Of a DNA stretch of 64,000 nucleotides, positions 18,911-62,727 are shown in pieces. The position numbers and the translations under genes were made by a program. Each line of letters starts with the position of its first letter. The stretch's first letter is position 1. Below the pieces are notes generated by a model. That model was not told the DNA's origin. It worked only from the letters and a program-made list of their open reading frames with translations, and made no database searches. The DNA comes from Desulfobulbaceae bacterium (GTDB taxonomy: Bacteria; Desulfobacterota; Desulfobulbia; Desulfobulbales; Desulfocapsaceae), in the NCBI GenBank assembly GCA_019163335.1, contig JAFLKM010000025.1, positions 1-64,000 of the forward strand, given 5' to 3'.

Positions 18911-18991
18911 AACCCCGATGAAAGGGATAAGTGCCTTTCGCAGAGTATTTTCTTGCAAAAAAAAACAAGAAAATACTCTGTAAGGCTCTAA
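18911..18991 (-). repeat. Family A palindromic repeat, full copy
   Basis: On the minus strand it reads TTAGAGCCTTACAGAG, an inverted A/T-rich hairpin (arms around AGTATTTTCTTG and CAAGAAAATACT), then GGCACTTATCCC and ATCGGGGTT. It aligns along its whole length with 26804-26886 at roughly 85 percent by eye. It sits in the gap between the receptor gene and the methyltransferase gene. Confidence 0.82.
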
Positions 18992-26299: not shown

Positions 26300-26328
26300 T
26301 TGACGTGCCCCTGCTTTTTCATTAGAAA
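26300..26328 (+). promoter_or_regulatory. Likely promoter of the B12 riboswitch transcript
   Basis: TTGACG and TAGAAA are separated by 17 bases, about ten bases before the riboswitch begins. Spacing and position fit a sigma-70 promoter. Confidence 0.6.
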
Positions 26329-26334
26329 ACGAAC

Positions 26335-26540
26335 TAATAATTTCAGATGCTCGTAACAGAGCTTAAAAGGGAACCCGGTGGCAATCCGGGACGGGCCCGC
26401 CGCTGTGACCGGGGACGACCGTTGCACTTAGCCACTGACCTGTATCATAAAAGGGTTGGGAAGGCGCAACAGGAAGGACGATCCGGAAGTCAGAAGACCT
26501 GTCTGAATGAAGAACAGCTGTTCCCGTGGACAAGGGACAG
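26335..26540 (+). ncRNA. Cobalamin riboswitch
   Basis: The leader contains the ordered AdoCbl riboswitch elements: GGGAACCCGGTGGCAATCCG, GGACGGGCCCGCCGCTGTGA, the GCCACTG element, GGGAAGGCGC and GGAAGTCAGAAGACCTG (B12 box region). A strong terminator follows directly, then a TonB receptor and a BtuF-like protein. Binding of a cobalamin should favour termination and shut off uptake when B12 is plentiful. Confidence 0.93.
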
Positions 26541-26568: not shown

Positions 26569-26611
26569 AATCCCCGGATCAATTTTATCATTGGTCCGGG
26601 GATTTTTTTTT
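26569..26611 (+). terminator. Riboswitch expression-platform terminator
   Basis: AATCCCCGGA and TCCGGGGATT form a 10-bp stem with a 16-base loop, followed by a run of eight or nine T residues. It lies just 3' of the cobalamin aptamer. Confidence 0.88.
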
Positions 26612-26716
26612 AGGTGCCGTTGCAAAAAGAGCAAGGCTCTTTTTGCTCATTTTGCTTACGGCACCTTATGCCGCGTCAGAGAAACAGCAATCTTTTCTGC
26701 TGTTTCTCTGCGCGGC
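26611..26716 (+). repeat. Family B double-hairpin repeat, copy 1
   Basis: Hairpin 1 runs from TAGGTGCCGT to ACGGCACC, with inner arms GCAAAAAGAGCAA and TTGCTCATTTTGC. Hairpin 2 runs from GCCGCGTCAGAGAAACAGCA to TGCTGTTTCTCTG and GCGGC. It starts at the last T of the riboswitch terminator and lies in the leader of the B12 receptor transcript. The second copy is at 62620. Confidence 0.85.
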
Positions 26717-26782
26717 GTCTCGCAAGTTCCATTCATCCTGCCAGACACCCCCCCGGACCGACAACTTTTTCAGGGAGAAAAA

Positions 26783-28876
26783 ATGAAAAAGCAGGTTTCC
26801 GTTTTAGTGCCTTACAGAGGAGTATCTTGTTCTTTTTACAAGAAAATACTCTGCAAAAGGCACTTATCCCGTTTGTCGGGGTTAGCGTTGTGTACCATGT
26901 TCAGTCTTAATGTAAGCAGCACGCTGGCCGCAGGCGATGGCCAGACCACAGACAGCGGGGCTGATGCCGTCCCCGGTGTCGAGACGATCAACGGCAAGAC
27001 CTATCTGACCATCACCGCCAGTCGGGTTCTGGAGAAGCAAAGCGGGGTCAGCTCCAATCTGACGGTGATCGATCGGGAGGAGATTGAACGCAGTAGTGCC
27101 GATTCGGTGGGTGATCTGATTGCCGAACAGGGTGTCGGGCATGTGCATAAATATCCAGGCGTTGCGACGTCCATCGGTATTCGCGGCTTTCGCACCGATA
27201 CCCATGGCAACGATCTCCAAGGACACGTGCTGGTGTTGCTCGATGGTCGCCGGGCGGGAACCGGCAATCTTGCCAAGATTATGACGAAAAACGTTGAACG
27301 CATCGAGATTATCCGTGGTCCCGGTGCGGTTCAGTATGGTTCCGGAGGGATGGGCGGGGTGGTCAATATCATCACCCGTCAGGGCAAAAGCAATTCCGCT
27401 TTTGTCGAGGGCGGGGGGGGGAGTTTTGGCGAGGCGGAAGGAAGCATCGGCGGCACAGCCAAGGAGAAGGGCTTTGATTTTGCCGGAGCCCTCAGCCATT
27501 CCACCCAGGGTGACTATAAAACCGGCAGCGGTGTGACCTTTGCCAATACCGGTTTTGATGGCCAGACCGGCGCCAGCCTCAATGGCGGGTACGAGTTTTC
27601 CCCCCATAACCGTTTCGGGGTGATCGTCACTGATTATGATGTCGATCGTGCCGGTGATCCCGGCTATCTGAGTGCCAATGATACCGACAATTATAGTGAC
27701 AAGAGCAATTACTCCGTGGACAGCTCGTACAATGGTCAAAGCAGCTCCGGCCGTTATCAGTGGATGGGGCGCTACTTCTTCGGCAAGGATGAGAATATCT
27801 GGAACGATCCTCGGCTTTCCAATGCCTCGGGCTATGATGACGGCATCGCGACAAGCAATAAAACCGACCAGCAAGGGGCCCAGGCCCAGATAAGCGGGGC
27901 GCTTGGAGCGCTGCATCTGACCACCGGCCTTGACTGGCTCCATTATGAAGTGGAAAATACCTATAGCCCGCAGCGGACCACCTATGACAACCCGGCCCTT
28001 TTCCTGCTGGCAAGAGTTGGCTTTCTCGACGAGCGGTTGACCCTCTCCGGCGGTGTCCGTCAAGATTGGTACGCCGTGGAGGTTGAGCAGCCGGCCGGCC
28101 GCGACGAGGACACTTCCCATTTTACGCCGCAAGTCGGCCTGGCATATCTGCTCACCGATGCCCTCAAACTCCGAGCCCAGGTGGCGCAGGGCTTTGTTAT
28201 GCCCTCTGCCGATCAGCTTGCCATTGATATCCTGGCCGCTGGACGCCGCACCGTTGGCAATCCAGATCTTGATCCTGAAACAAGTATGACCTGGGAGGGC
28301 GGGGTTGATTACACGAAGTCGGGGCTGAAGGGGGCTTTGACCTGGTTTACCACCGACTTTGATGATAAGATCGTCCGTAAAAGTCTGCCGGGCAATATCA
28401 CCAGCTTCACCAATCTGGGCAGCGCCAGCATCAGCGGGATTGAGGCCGCTCTTTCCTATGATGTCGGTGAACCCCTGCACTGGGCATGGGAGGTCCGGCC
28501 TTTTGTCGATATGACCTGGCTGACCCGCTACGAGGATAATGCCACGGGAGAGGATCTGACCTACATAAGCGATAGGACCCTGTCCACGGGACTGTCCTTT
28601 GCCGATGGTGCCGGAGGACTTTCCGGTCGGCTCAACGTCACCTATACCGGACCGCAGCAGGTGGATGACTGGGAAGATACCTATACCGTGGTGGAGCTTG
28701 ACAGCTTTGTTGTCACCGATCTGAGTCTCAGCTACCGGTTCCTGCGCAGTGAGCAACTGGGTGACTTCACTGTTCGTGGCGAGCTGTGCAACCTTTTTGA
28801 TCAAGACTATGCCTATGTCAAGGGCTACCCGATGCCGGGCCGCTCGATATGGGCCGGGTTGAAGTGGGAATGGTAG
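26783..28876 (+). CDS. btuB: TonB-dependent outer-membrane receptor, BtuB-like
   Basis: 697 aa from MKKQVSVLV, the ATG with GGGAG upstream; the track ORF reads back through the riboswitch. The plug domain has SSADSVGDLIAEQGVGHVHK, then RGFRTDTHGN, LLDGRRAGTG and IEIIRGPGAVQYGSGGMGG with VVNIITRQG. A 22-strand barrel follows and the chain ends in ...LKWEW, an aromatic terminus as needed for BAM insertion. The upstream cobalamin riboswitch and the downstream BtuF-like gene point to B12 uptake. The signal peptide is odd: codons 8-34 are encoded by a family A repeat, giving a long basic region before LALCTMFSLNVSSTLA. Confidence 0.88.
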   Translation: MKKQVSVLVPYRGVSCSFYKKILCKRHLSRLSGLALCTMFSLNVSSTLAAGDGQTTDSGADAVPGVETINGKTYLTITASRVLEKQSGVSSNLTVIDREEIERSSADSVGDLIAEQGVGHVHKYPGVATSIGIRGFRTDTHGNDLQGHVLVLLDGRRAGTGNLAKIMTKNVERIEIIRGPGAVQYGSGGMGGVVNIITRQGKSNSAFVEGGGGSFGEAEGSIGGTAKEKGFDFAGALSHSTQGDYKTGSGVTFANTGFDGQTGASLNGGYEFSPHNRFGVIVTDYDVDRAGDPGYLSANDTDNYSDKSNYSVDSSYNGQSSSGRYQWMGRYFFGKDENIWNDPRLSNASGYDDGIATSNKTDQQGAQAQISGALGALHLTTGLDWLHYEVENTYSPQRTTYDNPALFLLARVGFLDERLTLSGGVRQDWYAVEVEQPAGRDEDTSHFTPQVGLAYLLTDALKLRAQVAQGFVMPSADQLAIDILAAGRRTVGNPDLDPETSMTWEGGVDYTKSGLKGALTWFTTDFDDKIVRKSLPGNITSFTNLGSASISGIEAALSYDVGEPLHWAWEVRPFVDMTWLTRYEDNATGEDLTYISDRTLSTGLSFADGAGGLSGRLNVTYTGPQQVDDWEDTYTVVELDSFVVTDLSLSYRFLRSEQLGDFTVRGELCNLFDQDYAYVKGYPMPGRSIWAGLKWEW
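26804..26886 (+). repeat. Family A palindromic repeat inside the btuB signal-peptide region
   Basis: It runs from TTAGTGCCTTACAGAGGAGT through a hairpin (ACAAGAAAATACTCTGC pairs with the left arm) to GGCACTTATCCCGTTTGTCG and GGGTTAG. It aligns along its length with the complement of 18911-18991. The reading frame runs through it without a stop. Confidence 0.85.
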
Positions 28877-28944: not shown

Positions 28945-28985
28945 CACCACCCCCAACCCCCTCCTTGAACAAAGGAGGGGGCTTT
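28945..28985. repeat. Family C GC-rich palindrome, copy 1
   Basis: CACCACCCCCAACCCCCTCC followed by TTGAACAAAGGAGGGGGC. The 10-bp stem CCCCCTCCTT/AAGGAGGGGG is flanked by a conserved ACCACCCCCAA arm. It lies 3' of btuB and could also act as a terminator or mRNA stabiliser. Confidence 0.8.
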
Positions 28986-29059
28986 AGGGTGCTTTTAAAG
29001 ATTCCCTGTTGATCTTATTTGAGCCTCCAAGGGCTTGATTTGAGAAATAAAACAAAAAA

Positions 29060-48392: not shown

Positions 48393-48430
48393 AAGCCCCC
48401 TCCTTGTTTGAAGGAGGGGGATGGGGGTGG
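48393..48430. repeat. Family C palindrome, copy 4
   Basis: AAGCCCCCTCCTTGTTTGAAG, then GAGGGGGATGGGGGTGG. Orientation is opposite to copy 1. Confidence 0.8.
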
Positions 48431-48465
48431 TTTTTCGTTCAAGAAAAAAAGATTCGATCAACCAC

Positions 48466-61272: not shown

Positions 61273-62622
61273 ATGGAGTATGCCCTAGTGCTCTCTGAAT
61301 TGAAAGAAAATCTCCTGAAAGCTGGCCAGACTGAAGGCTGTCTCAGTTTTAGCGATTTAAATGAATTGTTGCCCGATGATATTAAAGATCCTAATGCCAT
61401 TGAAAGCATCTTTAATTTTCTGGGAGCCAATAATATCCAGATCGTTAATGTTGAGAAAAATGGCGAAAAACGCACCTTGTCTGGCGAGGTATGGGATCAT
61501 GACAAGAATGAAATTGATGACGATGATGAGCTGATAGATGTAGCGCTCACGACTGCCAGCGATGATGGCCATGAGGCGGAAGAAACAACCACCACATATC
61601 TTCGGGAGATGGGACAGTTTGATCTGTTGACTCCTGATGAAGAGGCGAAGTACTCAAAATGCATTCGTCAGGGTTTTGATGCGATTATTCAGGCGATACG
61701 GGACAATGCCTCGGATGTTGTGGAAATGACTTTGCTTTGCACGCGTATTGATCTCTGGGAAAAACGCGATCCAACGTTAAAGCCTAAAAAACAGCAGCTT
61801 AATTTTATGCGTTACAGCGTGATTGCTGCTGCCAAAAAGTATATAGAAAAACCTGAACTCTATCAGCTGCAAATCAAGATTGAGGGCTATAGTCACTCCA
61901 TTGAGATTGCCAAAGATGCGATGATTCGCGCGAATCTGCGTTTGGTTGTCTCCATAGCCAAACGTTATATGCATCAGGGACTAACCCTTGCTGATTTGAT
62001 TCAGGAGGGAAATCTTGGTCTGATGCGGGCTGTTTTTCGATTTGACTATACCAAGGGAAACAAGTTCTCAACCTATGCCAGCTGGTGGATCAGGCAGGCA
62101 ATTACCCGAGCGATTCTTGATAAAACCAGGACCATCCGGCTGCCGGTTCATTTCCTGGAGTTGCGCAGCCAGTTTTTCAAGGCCTTTTATGCCTTGTTCA
62201 AAGAGCTGGGGCGGGAGCCGACCCCCGTTGAGATTTCCAAGAGTACCGAATTGCCGATGGATAAGATCCTGGCAATCCTCGAGGCCTCCCGCGAGCCAAT
62301 CTCCCTTGAGACTCCGGTTGGTGATGATGATTCAACCCTGGGCGATTTCCTGGAAAATGGGGACTCTCAGTCTCCATTTGATATGGTGCAGACAAGAGAG
62401 CTTGCCGGTCGGGTGACTGAAATTCTGTCCACCCTCAGTGAGCGGGAAGAAAAGATTATCCGGCTTCGTTTTGGCATCGGGGAAAAGGCCGAATACACTC
62501 TGGAAGAGATTGGCAAGCGTTTCAATGTCTCTCGTGAACGGATTCGTCAGATTGAAAAAAAGGCATTGAATCGTTTACGTCATTCCAGCAGACGTGATCA
62601 GTTGAAGTTTTTCCTTGATTAG
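61273..62622 (+). CDS. Sigma-70 family RNA polymerase sigma factor, RpoD/RpoS-like
   Basis: 449 aa from ATG; a GTG five codons downstream has GGAG nine bases before it and is an equally good start. The track start is a TTG. Regions: a 1.1-like N-terminal domain (LSFSDLNELLPDDIKDPNAI), 1.2 (TYLREMGQFDLLTPDEEAKY), 2 (NLRLVVSIAKRYMHQGLTLA, DLIQEGNLGLMRAV, FSTYASWWIRQAITRAI), 3 and 4 (TLEEIGKRFNVSRERIRQIE). Core recognition and -10/-35 regions are intact, but region 3 (RTIRLPVHFLELRSQFFKAF) differs from the usual RpoD form (VHMIETINKL), and it is shorter than most delta-proteobacterial RpoD. A group 2 factor is likely. The stop codon lies in repeat B. Confidence 0.86.
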   Translation: MEYALVLSELKENLLKAGQTEGCLSFSDLNELLPDDIKDPNAIESIFNFLGANNIQIVNVEKNGEKRTLSGEVWDHDKNEIDDDDELIDVALTTASDDGHEAEETTTTYLREMGQFDLLTPDEEAKYSKCIRQGFDAIIQAIRDNASDVVEMTLLCTRIDLWEKRDPTLKPKKQQLNFMRYSVIAAAKKYIEKPELYQLQIKIEGYSHSIEIAKDAMIRANLRLVVSIAKRYMHQGLTLADLIQEGNLGLMRAVFRFDYTKGNKFSTYASWWIRQAITRAILDKTRTIRLPVHFLELRSQFFKAFYALFKELGREPTPVEISKSTELPMDKILAILEASREPISLETPVGDDDSTLGDFLENGDSQSPFDMVQTRELAGRVTEILSTLSEREEKIIRLRFGIGEKAEYTLEEIGKRFNVSRERIRQIEKKALNRLRHSSRRDQLKFFLD

Positions 62623-62727
62623 GTGCCGTTAAGAAAAGAGCAAGGCCGTTTTTGCTCTTTTCTCTTACGGCACCTTATGCCGCTCCAAAGAAACAGCCGG
62701 TTTTTTCGGGCTGGTTCTTTGAGTGGC
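62620..62727 (+). repeat. Family B double-hairpin repeat, copy 2
   Basis: TAGGTGCCGTTAAGAAAAGA starts at the sigma factor stop codon. Hairpin 1 (AGAAAAGAGCAA with TTGCTCTTTTCT) closes at ACGGCACC; hairpin 2 (CAAAGAAACAGCC with GGCTGGTTCTTTG) follows after TTATGCCGC. Sequence differs from copy 1, mostly in paired positions. Confidence 0.85.

Follow-up and report, generated by a model that had tools for sequence, protein, structure and literature searches.

Background

In alphaproteobacteria, the Caulobacter CerM-associated intergenic repeats (CIRs) are intergenic elements of ~110 bp in which a linker joins two long hairpin arms; they possess a GANTC motif at a loop, and the mechanism of their mobility is unclear (PMC2229807). 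Most known bacterial MITEs have TA at their ends and fold into a single stem that spans the whole element (PMC2229807). REPs are shorter, measuring 20-40 bp, and carry GTAG or CGTC tags, and RAYT-like genes with long inverted repeats on either side have been reported, with Acidobacteria among their hosts (PMC3733652).

In a window of 64,000 nucleotides from a Desulfobulbaceae bacterium, by which we mean the whole stretch of DNA that was analysed, an initial annotation had pointed to two copies of a two-hairpin repeat with compensating base changes, each starting directly at a transcript feature, and had argued from this for selection on RNA or single-stranded DNA structure. Here, we combined covariance-model searches, comparison of orthologous sites in congeners and a tally of stem deviations in order to characterise this repeat. 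It belongs to a large, apparently undescribed element family, which is probably a short non-autonomous, MITE-like mobile DNA that inserts at TTA and T-rich sites and is moved in trans by a transposase reading the folded hairpins.

Results and discussion

Two copies of one element in the window

Both copies represent the same repeat with the same two-hairpin plan, as had been proposed. They scored 111.5 and 107.3 bits with covariance model R1, which has both among its building sequences, and their folds were far better than those of shuffled sequences (z -11.3 for copy 1 and -7.4 for copy 2), with 0 of 200 dinucleotide shuffles equally good. The limits needed adjustment: the repeat starts with TTAG, one base before the start originally given, and its 3' end had been drawn ~18 nt too short. 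The compensating changes between the two copies are present, with the reservation that AAAGAAAC/GGTTCTTT of copy 2 has one unpaired position and that A-C is the first pair of the inner stem in hairpin A. The features of the window that are relevant here are the following.

18911..18991, - strand: further copy of the second repeat family (86% identity)
26328..26520, + strand: cobalamin riboswitch upstream of the insertion (Rfam RF00174, 116 bits)
26570..26609, + strand: predicted intrinsic terminator of the cobalamin riboswitch, its T-run being the insertion point (from the sequence, and from orthologs with the terminator and without the element)
26610..26716, + strand: copy 1, from TTAG to the foot of hairpin B (R1 111.5 bits, E 3e-21; z -11.3; site empty in 11 congeners)
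26612..26666, + strand: hairpin A of copy 1, outer stem AGGTGCCGT/ACGGCACCT, inner stem GCAAAA.../...TTTTGC (fold, covariation)
26666..26668, + strand: TTA separating hairpins A and B (invariant columns in the aligned copies; part of the pattern by which many copies were collected)
26669..26716, + strand: hairpin B of copy 1, GCCGC..CAGAGAAACAGC / GCTGTTTCTCTG..GCGGC (fold, covariation)
26717..26735, + strand: 3' extension with consensus GTCTGGCAAATAACATC, partly retained in copy 1 (column frequencies in 80 copies; end approximate)
26804..26885, + strand: second repeat family, plan TTA-hairpin-TTA-hairpin-TTA (TTAGTGCC..GGCACTTATCCC..GGGGTTAG), stems not homologous to those of the main element
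62619..62727, + strand: copy 2 (R1 107.3 bits); 62620-62622 is the TAG stop of a putative rpoD-like gene, a stop that stands without the element in 5 genomes

Window-type and canonical forms

The element follows the plan TTA-hairpin A-TTA-hairpin B(-TTA). In hairpin A, a TTA/TTA internal loop separates the outer stem of 7-8 bp (GGNGCCG or GAGNCCG) from an inner one of 12-14 bp, and hairpin B has an inner CAGC..GCTG core; a U-tract is missing behind both hairpins. Alignment A1 shows no variation in the 5' TTAG or in the TTA between the hairpins, for which part of the copies had been collected with patterns containing them. Window-type copies continue 3' of hairpin B with ~18 further conserved bases (GTCTGGCAAATAACATC, column frequencies in 80 copies), and 48 of the 80 have GTC after this hairpin. 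The canonical form measures 100-106 nt, ends in CGGCTTA and is bounded by inward-facing inverted repeats, GCCGTTACGAAATAAC and GCCGTTGTAAAAAAATAAC; in the window-type form, as delimited so far, no such terminal repeats are visible. Tandem arrays also exist, and in several of them the units join at TTA.

Some copies are rearranged. Three loci (L139, L167 and L121) contain internal tandem units TTACGGCTCCTTATGCC..GGC with TTA at both limits, as though cutting took place at TTA. In genome G038, four canonical elements (L311, L329, L330 and L430) have an internal deletion and retain both ends. Another repeat, CCACCCCCAACCCCCTCCTT..AAGGAGGGGG, present in the window at 28946-28996 and 48393-48435, repeatedly occupies the hairpin B loop, as though the hairpin tip were its target, and was also seen within copies L010, L013, L017 and L151.

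Copy number and distribution

The source genome holds ~31 full copies and ~70 in total. Like MITEs, the element is short, non-coding and dispersed in many copies. These counts derive from a covariance-model search yielding 95 matches at E <=1, of which ~70 had E <0.001 and ~31 were full-length with more than 92 bits; BLAST found 54 similar places. Within the genus, the element is present in every one of the 17 genomes searched, with 12 to 100 core matches per genome, and a reversed control pattern gave almost no matches in the same genomes. Among 395 sampled genomes of the phylum, only 9 possess it. Outside the genus, canonical elements occur in Desulfobacterota, in Geothrix and other Holophagaceae and in one Methylomirabilota genome (G038), which holds many near-identical copies; the host genomes are mostly draft metagenome assemblies. 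No match was obtained in plasmid and phage records, and those in viral contigs were mostly chance coding matches, with one real exception. Six diagnostic strings of the element were all absent from the open-access papers searched, although it may have been described elsewhere.

Insertion at TTA and T-rich sites

Both window copies start at a transcript feature, as first noticed: copy 1 at the T-run in the terminator of the cobalamin riboswitch, copy 2 at the TAG stop of a gene that resembles rpoD sigma-70 genes in sequence. At the first site, the terminator is found in the genus and the element is present in G000, G005 and, with other stems, G009, whereas 11 congeners lack it. At the rpoD-like stop, G000, G003 and G005 have the element and G006, G008, G011, G012 and G016 have none. 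The element is thus a mobile insertion, with empty orthologous sites in congeners, that of copy 1 included. At the rpoD locus of G003 and G005 (L187 and L188), a second array unit is present that is missing from the window genome, indicating that arrays grow or shrink.

A clean insertion of a canonical element was found in G009, which reads CCTGTCAAAAGT-TTA-[element]-TTA-GCAATGC where the empty site of G008 reads CCTGTCAAAAGG-TTA-GCGATGC. Here, ~100 bp entered at a single TTA and TTA then flanks both sides, an arrangement in which target duplication and a TTA carried by the element would look alike. G014 has a window-type array at the identical TTA, which appears, from the sequence, to be the stop codon of an opposite-strand gene. 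Because both forms occupy this same TTA in different congeners, window-type and canonical elements probably use the same enzyme.

With crude ORFs as gene calls, 51 copies lie on the same strand as the upstream gene and 53 on the opposite strand, and 27 of the 51 same-strand copies start precisely where TTAG provides the stop codon of that gene. Canonical elements sit at stop codons more often (10/37) than other non-coding TTAs do (44/362; p 0.02, again on crude gene calls). Stop codons are therefore supplied by TTAG partly because TTA is targeted. Likewise, the start at transcript features is accounted for by insertion at TTA and T-rich sites, among which are stop codons and terminator ends, the orthologous sites being empty in relatives. 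In a mechanism of this kind, a transposase acting in trans would insert the element at TTA or T-rich sequence, in many cases at a stop codon or a terminator end, and would most likely recognise both hairpins, punctuated by TTA, as folded single-stranded DNA (or as a cruciform).

Pairing is probably maintained at the DNA level

Had the changes been scattered without respect to pairing, the interpretation of the repeat as a selected structure would have failed. This was not the case: an alignment of 32 window-type copies has two-sided changes at 23 of its 38 consensus pairs, and paired positions covary in dozens of copies from several genera, which bears out the earlier statement that there is more here than sequence repetition. 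The inner stem of hairpin A comprises 56 different 11-mers in 87 copies, and Watson-Crick pairs make up 98% of all those aligned (1058/1082) in 85 distinct copies, as tallied by local alignment with ragged ends uncounted; an unaligned tally per position understated the pairing through single-base bulges. Conservation across genera extends to the loops, the TTA spacers and the CAGC/GCTG core. Mismatches are also kept within the stems, namely the TTA/TTA internal loop and, in 20 of 87 copies, a fourth outer pair that reads A-A or G-A.

G-U is tolerated in the stems of RNAs much more readily than A-C. In the element, G-T and A-C deviations were nearly equally frequent (13 vs 8 in hairpin A, 8 vs 6 in hairpin B, 21 vs 14 pooled), compared to 38 vs 0 in the control, the cobalamin riboswitch from the same genus (Fisher p 6e-6, a guide only, as the copies are related). 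The exception is the foot of hairpin B, where G-T is the commonest pair of its column (18/32); this pair was excluded from the 8 vs 6, and with it hairpin B shows 44 G-T vs 4 A-C. From the near parity of G-T and A-C together with the even orientation, pairing looks to be kept at the DNA level, whether folded DNA is under selection, palindromes are corrected or both processes act. Of the initially proposed selection on RNA or single-stranded DNA structure, the second half fits (single-stranded DNA, or a cruciform), while the first finds no support in the G-T and A-C counts, the random orientation and the missing U-tract.

Alternative explanations and the search for a mobilising enzyme

A structured RNA, be it a 3' UTR element, a small RNA or a cis-regulator of which the RNA fold is selected, would explain why the folds are very stable, why covariation is massive and why many copies lie immediately 3' of genes or terminators, but we regard it as distinctly unlikely, given deviations unlike those of the riboswitch of the same genus, the absence of a strand bias relative to genes and of a U-tract behind either hairpin, and the lack of an Rfam family, with no relevant match in the window at the gathering score or, chance-level matches aside, in 8 related loci at E <=1. 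Neutral palindrome correction, in which replication switches template and so rewrites one arm from its partner, would produce pairing without structural selection and agrees with stems that stay nearly perfectly paired despite divergence and with a G-T frequency that is not above the expectation from A-C. It could contribute to the pairing; as the full explanation it is unlikely, though somewhat less so than an RNA, because mismatches persist in the stems and because correction alone cannot account for the conserved loops, the TTA spacers and the CAGC/GCTG core.

A REP/RAYT-type system, in which a Y1 (HUH) transposase from the IS200/IS605 or RAYT group moves the hairpins, is suggested by the palindromes, the tandem arrays and the extragenic location, all as in REPs, by Y1_Tnp genes in 36 of 38 relatives and by the RAYT-like genes with long inverted-repeat flanks reported, for example, from Acidobacteria (PMC3733652). 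We nevertheless consider it very unlikely, the least probable of these alternatives, since in the 38 relatives and 8 element-bearing genomes searched, none of 60 Y1_Tnp loci had the element within ~1.5 kb, Y1 counts do not track element counts, a Geothrix genome carrying the element gave no Y1_Tnp match and the GTAG tag is missing. Other candidates were rejected as well. An IS5-like parent had been conceived from TTA and the element ends, but 30 DDE_Tnp_1 loci in 11 genome records (two of the same genome) were without such ends; integron attC sites were dismissed since inspection revealed no RYYYAAC/GTTRRRY boxes, and a group II intron since the size is not that of an intron. Two apparently long elements (L231 and L158) consist in reality of separate decayed or partial elements and not of a single transposon. 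The search for an autonomous partner thus covered, in draft genomes, the Y1 and DDE_Tnp_1 loci and the end matches of G038, where ~60 of 64 were read and all proved to be non-coding elements without an autonomous copy among them; no transposase-like gene family recurred next to elements in the loci compared.

A second family with the same grammar

The second repeat family of the window (TTAGTGCC..GGCACTTATCCCGTTYATCGGGGTTAG) is abundant and genus-wide, and a tail of it lies at 1951-1977. At three congener loci (L451, L455 and L456) it is joined head to tail with the main element at TTAG, and the two may share their machinery. Beyond the MITE-like reading given above, it is conceivable, if rather doubtful, that transposable DNA of a distinct class is present here, with at least two sequence-unrelated families of one grammar (TTA-hairpin-TTA-hairpin-TTA) moved in trans by a single enzyme. 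Such an enzyme would recognise the DNA fold and the TTA spacers, not the stem sequence, such that stems drift freely and pairing stays. If one enzyme does underlie the shared grammar, transposition in this system would be guided by structure, which is unusual, and stop codons would be one kind of site at which it can land safely.

The family of the main element adds mobile repeats that span several phyla. Moreover, counting G-T against A-C deviations, with a riboswitch as control, provides a simple test to discriminate covariation at the DNA level from that at the RNA level, which is useful as covariation in such repeats is easily mistaken for a new RNA.

Comparison with known systems

Like bacterial MITEs (NEMIS/Correia, RUP, ERIC), the element is smaller than 200 bp and non-coding, has inverted-repeat ends in its canonical form and TTA on both flanks, and occurs at sites that are filled in one genome and empty in another; it differs from them by its two separate, covarying hairpins and by having no known parent transposon. 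With REP/RAYT systems it has in common that its palindromes are extragenic, often downstream of genes and in arrays, whereas it is ~100 bp long, TTA-bounded, starts with TTAG, lacks a GTAG tag and does not lie beside Y1 genes. The GTC after hairpin B recalls CGTC-REPs, yet stem and loop sizes do not match. The bcr1 repeats of the Bacillus cereus group are likewise mobile with a conserved secondary structure, a likeness by description only and in other hosts than those of the element. As in CIRs, the element is two-armed, of the ~110 bp class and intergenic, with long hairpins; unlike them, it is marked by TTA spacers and TTA insertion sites, and no GANTC was seen in its consensus loops on reading the alignment. 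The element is closest to CIRs in plan, to MITEs in behaviour and to REPs in habitat.
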